Made by a program: the position numbers and the translations under genes. The notes under the pieces are model-generated. The model saw only the letters and a program-made list of their open reading frames with translations. It was not told the DNA's origin and ran no database searches. Of a stretch of DNA of 64,000 bases, positions 27,131 through 32,082 are shown in pieces; position 1 is the stretch's first letter, and the number at the start of each line of letters is the position of its first letter. Source of the DNA: Candidatus Thorarchaeota archaeon (GTDB taxonomy: Archaea; Asgardarchaeota; Thorarchaeia; Thorarchaeales; Thorarchaeaceae); the NCBI GenBank assembly GCA_008080745.1, contig SHMX01000003.1:220971-284970 (forward strand). Reading direction: 5' to 3'.

Positions 27131-27991
27131 ATGGCATTCGAAGCAAAACTTAATCTTGTGCCAATTGATAGAGCACAAAAAGAATATATCGAGAGCCTCC
27201 TTCCAATTGAGATTGGTATGTTTGGAGGAAGCGGAAATTATGATCCAACAGTTATTGAAGATCCTGCAGAGGTGAAAGTCTTTACCCCCTACGGAGCAAC
27301 TTCAGACCACTTCATTTTAGGAAAGGCAAAAGGCAGAAGTTTTGTATTTCTTGCACGTCATGCAAGGGGTCATACTATTCTCCCACACCAAATCAACTAC
27401 CAAGCAAATATTTGGGGAATGAAAGCTCTAGGAGTTAAGAGGATTATCAGTCCAGCAGCTTGTGGTAGCTTACAGCCAGAACGTATCAAATTAGGCGAAT
27501 TTGTGATTGCGGATCAAATTTTCGACAGAACATTTGGTCAACGCAAAGATACATTCTTTGAGGGAGGGCCCGTAGGTCATCTGCCATTTGCAGAGCCCTT
27601 CTGTTCTGAACTCAGGAAAGTTGCAAAAGCGACAGCAGATTCACTTGAGTACAAGGTTCATGAAAAAGGAACTTACGTGTGTATCAACGGTCCGCGATTT
27701 TCCACACGAGCAGAATCAATGTTCTTCCACAATCAAGGATGGGATGTCATTGGTATGACTGCATATCCTGAAGCAGCTTTAGCTCGTGAGGCGGGTATAT
27801 GCTTTGTTAATATTTCAATGCCTACAGACTATGATGTCCATGCAGAAGAGCATGTCACACATGAGATGGTTCTCAAGACAATGTCAAAGAATGTTGAGAG
27901 AGTACGCAAGCTGACTTTTGCAATGATTGATAATATTCCCAAAGATGCAGGCTGTGATTGTCAGACTGCTATGATAAATGGCCTTTTTTAA
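27131..27991 (+). CDS. mtnP: S-methyl-5'-thioadenosine phosphorylase
   Basis: GMFGGSGNYD, RHARGHTILPHQINYQANIWGMK, NGPRFSTRAE, GMTAYPEAALARE. Confidence 0.93.
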   Translation: MAFEAKLNLVPIDRAQKEYIESLLPIEIGMFGGSGNYDPTVIEDPAEVKVFTPYGATSDHFILGKAKGRSFVFLARHARGHTILPHQINYQANIWGMKALGVKRIISPAACGSLQPERIKLGEFVIADQIFDRTFGQRKDTFFEGGPVGHLPFAEPFCSELRKVAKATADSLEYKVHEKGTYVCINGPRFSTRAESMFFHNQGWDVIGMTAYPEAALAREAGICFVNISMPTDYDVHAEEHVTHEMVLKTMSKNVERVRKLTFAMIDNIPKDAGCDCQTAMINGLF

Positions 27992-28043: not shown

Positions 28044-28763
28044 TTAGTGAATATCCATCCAGACAAATTTCTCAAGGACAATTTTATCATCAGAAAAACC
28101 AAGTTCCTCTGCAGCTGACTTCATGGCCTTCAAGAACCCAGGAGGCCCACAAATATACACAGTTCGATCTTTGTCTTTGAGGTGTTTTTGAAGTAAATCT
28201 TTGTCAATCCGACCGTACTCATATCCTGATTGTTTCTCTTGTGTTAATGCAAGTACAAGGTCATCACCAAAGGTTTCTCGAAGTTCTTTCTCCAATATAA
28301 TGTCTTTTTTCATTTTATTCGAGAAAATCAGAAGGTTGTCCTCTATTCGTTCATGCTTTCGTAAATGTCTGAATATTGCAATGAAGGGGGTAATTCCGGC
28401 CCCACCAGCTATAAAATATCCAGGTTCGTTATATGTAAGGCTGCCAAAGGGGTTTCTGATAGTAATATTATCTCCAGCTTGCAAATCATGTAATCGAGTA
28501 GTAACTCCATCATGTGAAGGATAGCCCTTGATGGTAAATTCTAACACTTCATCCTCATTTAGAGATGTAAAAGTAAAGGGTCGTAGCTCATCGTCCCAAT
28601 CATCGCGTTCCAATGAAACCAAGTTTGCTTGGCCTGGGATAAATGAGTAACCTTTTGGCTTTTCCACAATAAATCGCTTTACATCATGAGTGACAAATTC
28701 AGTCATGAGCACCTTCACCTTCTGAGGGTTGCTCTCAGTCGGTATTTCTTTTACGTCTGTCAT
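28044..28763 (-). CDS. Ferredoxin-NAD(P)H reductase-like FAD/NAD-binding oxidoreductase
   Basis: RPFTFTS, FIAGGAGITPFIAIFRHL, VYICGPPGFLKAM. Confidence 0.85.
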   Translation of the reverse strand: MTDVKEIPTESNPQKVKVLMTEFVTHDVKRFIVEKPKGYSFIPGQANLVSLERDDWDDELRPFTFTSLNEDEVLEFTIKGYPSHDGVTTRLHDLQAGDNITIRNPFGSLTYNEPGYFIAGGAGITPFIAIFRHLRKHERIEDNLLIFSNKMKKDIILEKELRETFGDDLVLALTQEKQSGYEYGRIDKDLLQKHLKDKDRTVYICGPPGFLKAMKSAAEELGFSDDKIVLEKFVWMDIH

Positions 28764-28859
28764 CCTATTCCTCTTCTTCTTAACCTATAATTAACTATGA
28801 TTAAGACACTATTTACCTCTTGCGAAATAGCAAAATTAGATATAAAAAGAACAAAGATC

Positions 28860-28883
28860 GTGAGCCCGAATAATCGGGCCCAC
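28860..28883 (-). terminator. Hairpin downstream of acidic-Trp mini-gene
   Basis: GTGAGCCCGA-ATAA-TCGGGCCCAC (one mismatch); minus strand continues into CTTTGTTCTTTTT. Confidence 0.6.
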
Positions 28884-28922
28884 ATATCCAAAATCTACTT
28901 CTATGACATCTGGGAATGAGGC

Positions 28923-29021
28923 TTACCAATCATCGTCTTCGTCGTCTTCCCAGTCCTCGTCATCATCATCTTCCCAATCGTCGTCGTCTTCTTCCCAATC
29001 TTCGTCGCGATATGGTTTCAT
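28923..29021 (-). CDS. Acidic-Trp miniprotein (32 aa)
   Basis: Translated by hand: MKPYRDEDWEEDDDDWEDDDDEDWEDDEDDDW; SD-like GAGGTG upstream and hairpin plus T-tract downstream. Confidence 0.65.
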   Translation of the reverse strand: MKPYRDEDWEEDDDDWEDDDDEDWEDDEDDDW

Positions 29022-29321
29022 TTTGGATTTTTCACCTCACGACAGTGAGAGTAAAAGTATGAGTTAAATTTACGCTCCGATATTTGTAGTTTTTATTAGG
29101 TCCAAAGTTTCGATATAAGACTTATAATGGCTTATTTAATAATTATAGAGGTTAACATAACCTCTTACATTTAATGGTGATTATAAATGTACAAAAAGAT
29201 AATATATAGCACTTATAACCGAGTGTGCTTATGTCACCAAGTGGTTGTTTTTTACTAATCGTAGTAATAATAGGGAAGAGAATAGCTATATCCTATGAAT
29301 AGTATAGGGAGTAGAAGAGCT

Positions 29322-30185
29322 ATGACACGACCAAGAACACGTACCCCTGAATCCCCTGTACATGTAATTGTCCAAATTGCCAAATCAAAGCAAAGGGCGC
29401 CCAAGATACCCGAGTCAGAAGAGGTTGAAAAGATAGCGAAAGGAGTTTATCGAATTTTTGGCAAACCAGAAAGGCACAAACATCATTTTCATGACATTCC
29501 TCATATTGCATTCCGAAGAACAAAAGAAATTCCAAGCACACGTTCCAAATCTCTTGACGATGTACTAAGAAGAACATATGCGTTGGTGGTATACAGATAC
29601 GAAAATCCCACAGCTCAACAGAAGAAACGAACTCAAAGATTGATTAGACGATCCCCGTGTATTCGTCTCCGGCCGGGTGTACTTGTCTTTCCGCATCTAA
29701 AGGCAAAACAGATGTCAAAAGTATATCAGAAGAGAGATAAGACCAAGCTATTCACCGCTAAAGAATTCGCTTCAAAAATGGAAGAGTTTGGAGCGAAGGT
29801 AATACGATGGGGACGTCTGAAAATATCAGGACCCCGTAGTTTTGGATTACTTGAGCAATCATTAAAGAATATGATAGAAAGCGAGGAAAAGGCAATTGTT
29901 GACAAATTCAAGCAATTGAAGAAAGAGGCCAAAAATTCAGAGGTTTCGATTAAGAAACTCAAAGAGAGATACAGAGAGCTTTCTGGAAGATATAAACTTC
30001 AGAAAACCTCCTGTGAAGTGATTAGAGAGGTCTGGAAATTCGACTGTGAAAAACAACTAAGGAGAGTATACAACATCATGCTCCAGACACGAAGAGCTAT
30101 ATCTGAACAACAATCAAGTATGAAAAGACTAACTGAGAGGGAAACTATCGAAGAATCATCTGCAGTTGATCACCAGTCGTCATAA
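29322..30185 (+). CDS. Very basic hypothetical protein with C-terminal coiled coil; possible ChrB-N/PaaX-like (ferredoxin-fold) central region
   Basis: ATG at 29322 (29295 alternative); Arg/Lys-rich N-terminus; YALVVYRYENPTAQQKKRTQRLIRR..GVLVFPHLK..ASKMEEFGAKVIRWGRLK. Confidence 0.6.
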   Translation: MTRPRTRTPESPVHVIVQIAKSKQRAPKIPESEEVEKIAKGVYRIFGKPERHKHHFHDIPHIAFRRTKEIPSTRSKSLDDVLRRTYALVVYRYENPTAQQKKRTQRLIRRSPCIRLRPGVLVFPHLKAKQMSKVYQKRDKTKLFTAKEFASKMEEFGAKVIRWGRLKISGPRSFGLLEQSLKNMIESEEKAIVDKFKQLKKEAKNSEVSIKKLKERYRELSGRYKLQKTSCEVIREVWKFDCEKQLRRVYNIMLQTRRAISEQQSSMKRLTERETIEESSAVDHQSS

Positions 30186-30274
30186 TCCTCTTCGATGTCA
30201 TCATCCCAAAACTCTTCTGGCCAATCCTCGTCCGATTCATCGTCATCATCCGGAATTTCTTCATAAACTGGCAT
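30170..30274 (-). CDS. Second acidic-Trp miniprotein (34 aa)
   Basis: Internal Met of listed ORF with SD GAGGA: MPVYEEIPDDDDESDEDWPEEFWDDDIEEDYDDW. Confidence 0.6.
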   Translation of the reverse strand: MPVYEEIPDDDDESDEDWPEEFWDDDIEEDYDDW

Positions 30275-31545: not shown

Positions 31546-32082
31546 CTACCTTCCTTCAGAGGTCACGACTCTCTGGATTAACCATAGACTGTATACGGAA
31601 AAGAGTATAATTATACCAGCAATTCCAACAAGAGAACCTGAAAATCCAGGTACAATTGAATTACCTGTAGCTATTTGAACGATGATATCTGCAAGTGCAA
31701 TAATAATCGAACCATACATTACGAAAAGGTTAGTCAAGCCACCATAACGAATCATTCTTCCCTCGGCCATCTTCCAAGCTTTTATGGCCATAACAGATCC
31801 TGCACCAACTATCACCATAAGAAAATACAGGCCAACTAAAGTCCATTTCCAATAATAGCTAATATCAGGAGGCATAAGAACTACCACAGCAATACCTATG
31901 ATCGAGAGAATGAAAGTAACTTTGGGATATGGGTCTGCTAAGAACTCTTTCCAGCGGTCCACTCTGGGTTGTTCATATGTTCTAACAGGTTCCTCATATT
32001 CATCTTCTTCTGCATCTGGAAAAGTTTCTTCATACTCTTCCTCTTCATATTCTTCATCAAAGGTGTCTTCGTCTGAAACCAT
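31546..32082 (-). CDS. Membrane protein with strongly acidic Glu/Tyr-rich N-terminus
   Basis: DEDTFDEEYEEEEYEETFPDAEEDEYEE followed by four TM helices. Confidence 0.55.
   Translation of the reverse strand: MVSDEDTFDEEYEEEEYEETFPDAEEDEYEEPVRTYEQPRVDRWKEFLADPYPKVTFILSIIGIAVVVLMPPDISYYWKWTLVGLYFLMVIVGAGSVMAIKAWKMAEGRMIRYGGLTNLFVMYGSIIIALADIIVQIATGNSIVPGFSGSLVGIAGIIILFSVYSLWLIQRVVTSEGR

Follow-up and report, generated by a model that had tools for sequence, protein, structure and literature searches.

A conserved acidic-tryptophan microprotein and its basic genetic partner in Asgard archaea

DSS1/Sem1 (PF05160) is a protein of about 70 amino acids with a C-terminal helix. It shares with the archaeal microprotein described here a small size, acidity, disorder and tryptophans set within acidic runs; the microprotein differs in having an unrelated basic protein as its partner. 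DSS1 is a partner of BRCA2, and DNA mimicry toward RPA has been reported for it (Zhao et al. 2015, as cited in PMC10684384). Prothymosin alpha is a disordered polyanion that engages a strongly basic partner, the linker histone H1 (PMC7661507). Our locus resembles that system in pairing a polyanion with a basic protein, and poly-lysine microproteins in related lineages resemble H1 tails in composition. However, the microprotein is far smaller than prothymosin alpha, rich in tryptophan and encoded beside its partner, and we claim no homology. The TPR domain of kinesin light chain binds W-acidic motifs, which are short motifs within long adaptors (PMC5450233, PMC6214655). There too tryptophan is flanked by acidic residues, and a TPR protein neighbours the microprotein in two families (f1 and f14), but ours is a stand-alone microprotein whose TPR neighbours are not constant.

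Across 59 Asgard genomes, PF05160 gave no match over its cut-off, and the two weak matches were not microproteins of this kind. Nor does a C-terminal helix follow the acidic-tryptophan segments, since the microprotein ends within or at such a segment. We therefore rejected membership of DSS1/Sem1. By analogy, the microprotein's mode of action may resemble that of acidic chaperones and nucleic-acid mimics already known, such as prothymosin alpha (with H1) and DSS1.

The microprotein gene and its conservation

We analysed a window of 64,000 nucleotides from a Candidatus Thorarchaeota contig, in which an original prediction had placed a 32-residue acidic ORF on the minus strand. Re-reading the sequence returned the ORF as described, with tryptophans at positions 9, 16, 24 and 32. 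Its Shine-Dalgarno-like GAGGTG was located at 29038-29033, and the downstream hairpin and T-tract correspond to an 11-bp hairpin with a T-rich tail at 28884-28859. The span first reported, 28860-29021, is the microprotein gene together with its terminator; a partner gene and a second small ORF nearby had been overlooked. The features of the locus are as follows (families, genera, genomes and loci carry the prefixes f, g, G and L).

28859..28884, minus strand: terminator-like 11-bp hairpin and short T-rich tail, 3' of the microprotein gene
28923..29021, minus strand: acidic-tryptophan microprotein gene, 32 aa, MKPYRDEDWEEDDDDWEDDDDEDWEDDEDDDW, identified by its ortholog in G001 and by codon-position bias over syntenic orthologs
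29033..29038, minus strand: Shine-Dalgarno GAGGTG of the microprotein gene, 11 nt before the ATG
29061..29075, minus strand: upstream block GCGTAAATTTAACTC, identical in the same-genus genome G001
29295..30185, plus strand: fam0, a basic 296-aa protein of pI 10.4, divergent from the microprotein gene and found by neighbour clustering
30170..30274, minus strand: second acidic-tryptophan mini-ORF, 34 aa, MPVYEEIPDDDDESDEDWPEEFWDDDIEEDYDDW, convergent with fam0 and overlapping its stop

The microprotein consists largely of acidic residues (16 D and 7 E, 23 of 32 in all) with 4 W, giving a net charge of about -21. Searches of Pfam, NCBIfam, PHROGs, PADLOC and PDB sequences provided no identity for such microproteins, with 0 Pfam matches for the five searched, and Rfam matched no RNA element. 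The upstream block GCGTAAATTTAACTC is a candidate archaeal promoter element. A TTTACTC(T) element lies ~25-50 nt before many microprotein starts in different genera and is absent in others; examples are window 29040-29075 and L123, L124, L126, L137, L139 and L142. It is a possible promoter or operator.

A search of relatives for homologs and synteny, as suggested with the original prediction, found a syntenic ortholog in G001 and linked microproteins in further Asgard families. The G001 ortholog (MKPYRDEDDWEEDDEEDWEDDDWEDDDDDDW) lies at the same place and shares with the window the upstream block, the Shine-Dalgarno sequence and the N-terminal codons. Its tryptophans fall at 10, 18, 23 and 31. 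The regular tryptophan spacing that had first drawn attention to the ORF is thus not conserved among relatives: acidic-tryptophan composition and the tryptophans themselves are kept, but with acidic codons coming and going, the exact distances between tryptophans drift. A terminal tryptophan is present in 27 of the 34 fam0-linked microproteins of f1 and f10 (manual count). At the level of sequence, what is conserved is an alternation of acidic runs and tryptophan, usually with a terminal tryptophan.

Six sets of syntenic microproteins provided 568 aligned codon pairs, in which differences at codon positions 1/2/3 numbered 43/42/163; the codon differences comprised 105 synonymous changes, 33 D<->E exchanges and 55 others. 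GAGGTGA recurs upstream of most relatives' microproteins, even those that start with GTG or TTG. Of 149 phylum relatives, 82 have the coding form of an acidic3-W-acidic3 pattern (GANGANGANTGGGANGANGAN), and none has the reversed control pattern. The microprotein gene is real and selected as a protein. That it forms a small transcription unit and did not arise by chance, as originally proposed, is borne out by the orthologs, the third-position bias, the conserved Shine-Dalgarno sequence and the terminator-like hairpin. An extremely simple composition is what one would expect of a non-genic, low-complexity (GAN)n run whose reading frame happens to be open; against the orthologs, the codon bias, the Shine-Dalgarno sequence, the conserved linkage described below and the absence of the pattern from the reversed control, we regard that explanation as exceedingly improbable.

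Linkage of the microprotein to a basic gene family

Clustering of neighbouring genes identified fam0 as the one protein found beside microproteins in distantly related families. Its members are about 260-330 aa long with a pI of 10.2-11.3, and they have no significant match in Pfam, NCBIfam, PHROGs or PDB sequence searches. A profile search located 45 fam0 places, spread over 40 of 232 phylum genomes; contig ends cut five of these places. At 38 of the 40 informative places, those with usable flanks, manual counting put an acidic-aromatic mini-ORF no more than about 550 bp away; the other two are distant homologs in G057 and G042. Unrelated loci totalling 163 kb contained no such mini-ORF.

The arrangement takes two forms. 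The microprotein gene is divergent and upstream of fam0 in f1, f6, f14 and f17, and in f10 it lies downstream on the same strand at a distance of about 180-460 bp. Two f10 genomes (G088 and G052) carry two fam0 copies each, and every copy has its own microprotein. Apart from one weak match, fam0 is the sole gene common to f1 and f10 loci, and the linkage is therefore not a relic of general synteny; f14 loci additionally share TPR proteins and a metallo-beta-lactamase-type match. The f17 instance comes from a genome with 12% contamination (G104), and its neighbours are up to 87% identical to those in the f6 genome G041. The contig may really belong to a relative of f6, so f6 and f17 may not be independent. 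Our comparisons show that several distinct families maintain the linkage of the microprotein to fam0, that it holds in both arrangements and that it survives duplication.

Co-occurrence was examined in f1, where all 26 fam0-positive genomes contain the acidic-tryptophan pattern and all 8 pattern-negative genomes are without fam0 (hypergeometric P 6e-4, not corrected for kinship). The window's own genome was searched by both pattern and profile. A conserved-stretch search recovered the partner gene in 17 named MAG loci, 16 assigned to Candidatus Thorarchaeota and one labelled Lokiarchaeota (RBin_111). Two other neighbours were considered as partners and rejected. The FNR-like downstream gene (28044-28763) lies beside the microprotein only in G000 and G001, and MTAP (27131-27991), though often a neighbour, is one in f1 alone, as expected of ordinary synteny.

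Microproteins also occur without fam0. Thirteen f1 genomes have them, with G008, G026 and G027 keeping theirs at the same spot between nitrilase and MTAP, and f2 genomes carry them beside other genes. Because they persist in this way, the microprotein either does not depend strictly on fam0 or has other partners.

Further acidic-tryptophan and poly-lysine microproteins

Stand-alone acidic-tryptophan microproteins of about 25-60 aa are found in most near relatives, often with more than one per genome, and part of the pattern matches lie within large proteins (for example L032-L034 and L046). In several microproteins of f1, f2, f10 and f14, the acidic run is preceded by a short (G/P)P(E/K) element at the N-terminus (FGPEDDDD, YPPEDD, GPKKKK; by inspection), which hints at homology beyond composition. 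Our scan of viral contigs found that acidic-tryptophan tails exist elsewhere, mostly inside larger proteins; six IMG/VR entries (L234, L241, L244, L248, L253 and L267) are small zinc-finger-like phage proteins with such tails (EDDWDEDDWDD).

The fam0-less microproteins of f2 (L094-L122) each occupy a recurring place according to their type. Judged by sequence inspection, they adjoin a deoxyhypusine-synthase-like gene in L096, L097 and L114, a cyclophilin-like gene in L094, L099, L100 and L105, and a 650-aa methyltransferase-like protein in L095, L101, L102, L119, L120 and L122. Genus g6 has a second, W-terminated type (EENDLLWEEEDW...) located between metallo-beta-lactamase-like and GNAT-like genes (L079 103-186, L081, L084 7361-7522, L091-L093), which is also found in fam0-less genomes. 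Within the window, the second mini-ORF has a similar ORF in G001, where it is without an ATG start; in both genus members the sequence ends WPEEFWDDD(I/V)E(E/D)DYDDW (window 30170-30274, minus strand; L132 980-1450, plus strand). A predicted membrane protein at 31546-32082 (minus strand) bears a long acidic-aromatic N-terminal tail (DEEYEEEEYEETFPDAEEDEYEEP), and its relatives lie near fam0 or a microprotein in several f1 loci.

Microproteins of the opposite charge adjoin the acidic ones in some lineages. At 7 of 9 fam0 loci in f10, an ORF of ~25 aa lies between fam0 and the acidic microprotein (for example MAKKKSGKKSKGKTTTSKEKKAKK). Three f1 genera (g3, g6 and g10) have K/A/P/T-rich mini-ORFs just downstream of the acidic one (for example MAKKKPSTPKKKAAPEKKAAPKKKGGKKK), as does f14. 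Altogether, about 18 loci in these groups encode a poly-lysine microprotein of 17-31 aa (MAKKKP..KKKK; L155-L158, L160, L162, L163, L068, L078-L080, L085, L087, L111, L112, L133, L139 and L140), and other loci, about 103 kb in all, contained none. Differences at codon positions 1/2/3 number 25/25/54, with no K<->R exchange in the sets compared. Pattern searches found no poly-lysine mini-ORF in the window's genus, neither next to the window's own gene nor at other places, and the MAKKK pattern is absent from the window's genome.

Predicted fold of fam0 and proposed function of the pair

We modelled two distant fam0 members with AlphaFold2 on a 35-sequence alignment (pLDDT 90.3 and 89.7; pTM 0.82 and 0.85). 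Both are predicted to form two tandem ferredoxin-like domains followed by three long helices in a helical bundle; in the window's protein the first ferredoxin-like unit is without its first helix. The two domains look related to each other (hhalign probability 69, P 4e-5). Foldseek returned no match at E <= 1e-3. The top PDB match for both models was PaaX (8a39; E 3.8e-3 and 2.2e-3, probability 0.87 and 0.82); structures of Cas2 and VapD ranked below it, and the resemblance to PaaX and Cas2 is weak.

At the sequence level, PaaX_M gave no match over its cut-off in 59 genomes; the best fell on fam0 (E 0.0025, 18.9 bits, cut-off 24), and three sub-threshold matches in all fall on fam0 (G043, G021 and G041). 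Neither model has an N-terminal winged helix-turn-helix, and each begins with a ferredoxin-like unit. Domain 2 aligned to Asgard Cas2 with an hhalign probability of 17, and the Cas2 active-site Asp after beta-1 is absent from the fam0 alignment, which has Tyr-Arg/Ser in place of Tyr-Asp. Thus, fam0 is like PaaX and Cas2 in its top Foldseek matches and sub-threshold PaaX_M matches but unlike them in having two tandem ferredoxin-like units and a C-terminal three-helix bundle, with neither a winged helix nor the Cas2 Asp. We rejected its assignment to either family on these grounds. From its predicted fold and charge, we infer that fam0 binds nucleic acid.

We favour a reading, to which we give a probability of about 0.5, in which the acidic-tryptophan microprotein, disordered by composition, and the divergent basic fam0 form an Asgard genetic module, the microprotein masking or escorting fam0 as a nucleic-acid mimic. 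As a flexible polyanion, the microprotein would bind the basic surface of fam0, with Asp and Glu carboxylates standing in for phosphates and Trp indoles for bases, in mimicry of single-stranded RNA or DNA. Bound in this way, it would keep fam0 soluble and off non-specific nucleic acid, and a specific nucleic-acid target would then displace it. Charge complementarity is consistent with such a pairing (pI 10.2-11.3 for fam0 against a net charge of about -21). The original suggestion of a nucleic-acid mimic or a chaperone for a basic protein has thereby gained strong genetic support, through linkage to a protein of pI 10-11 at 38 of 40 informative loci; binding itself we infer. The other role suggested then, a metal-binding peptide, found no specific support.

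The chief rival to a charge-complementary pair is that fam0 is a PaaX-like DNA-binding regulator which controls the microprotein's promoter in the shared 273-bp intergenic region (29022-29294), and the microprotein has its own targets elsewhere, be they ribosomes, chromatin or other basic proteins. The divergent arrangement in f1, f6 and f14 fits this, as do PaaX as the top structural match, the three sub-threshold PaaX_M matches on fam0, the microproteins that persist without fam0 and the TTTACTC-like element recurring upstream of several of them. However, that element is missing at several fam0-positive loci and the N-terminal winged helix is absent from both models. The explanation is weakened further by the f10 arrangement, where the microprotein gene follows fam0 on one strand after about 180-460 bp, and by the retention of a separate microprotein by each duplicated fam0. 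On balance we consider it doubtful.

Two other explanations take up the poly-lysine microproteins and the paired retention. Acidic-tryptophan and adjoining poly-lysine microproteins could form a disordered complex or droplet, like prothymosin with H1, that recruits fam0 and nucleic acid. The precedent is known (PMC7661507), and about 18 loci have a lysine-rich mini-ORF beside the acidic one, with third-position bias and no K<->R exchange. Yet no such mini-ORF was found by the window's gene or in its genus, so a condensate cannot be the whole function. As a general account it is unlikely, and it may apply in lineages with a poly-lysine microprotein and not in the window's genus. Still less probable is a toxin-antitoxin-like system, in which fam0 would be a nuclease-type toxin, the acidic microprotein its antitoxin and the fam0-less microproteins orphan antitoxins. 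Such a system would account for the two-gene linkage, the paired retention on duplication, the presence of VapD and Cas2 among the weak fold matches and the survival of microproteins beyond fam0. Against this, the Cas2 active-site Asp is not at the aligned position, the f1 pair occupies a constant chromosomal position, as a housekeeping gene would, and PADLOC defence models gave no convincing match, the only hit being AbiEi at E 0.015 over 26 residues. Paired retention is seen, yet microproteins stand alone in many genomes.

The favoured reading, a microprotein that masks or escorts fam0, concerns new proteins whose way of working probably has known analogues. The finding is real and larger than first thought, namely a conserved acidic-tryptophan microprotein with a basic genetic partner. 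In the open-licence PubMed Central literature we found no relevant description of acidic or tryptophan microproteins from Asgard archaea. We tentatively propose an undescribed Asgard class of charge-polarised microproteins, acidic-tryptophan ones of ~25-60 aa often joined by poly-lysine ones of 17-31 aa, dedicated to a new basic tandem-ferredoxin family. They would be prokaryotic complementary disordered polyelectrolytes that govern which proteins reach nucleic acid, and would resemble prothymosin alpha-H1 or DSS1-RPA in principle. ORFs as short as these tend to be omitted by gene callers, and their composition is masked by BLAST, so much of a conserved gene class may lack annotation in the archaea that are the nearest relatives of eukaryotes. 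The microprotein and fam0 are both small enough for synthesis or expression, which makes the idea directly testable. If the microprotein binds fam0, it would rank as a natural nucleic-acid mimic of unusually small size, and Asgard archaea would be shown to possess a mode of regulation, through disordered proteins of opposite charge, that is known best in the nuclei of eukaryotes.
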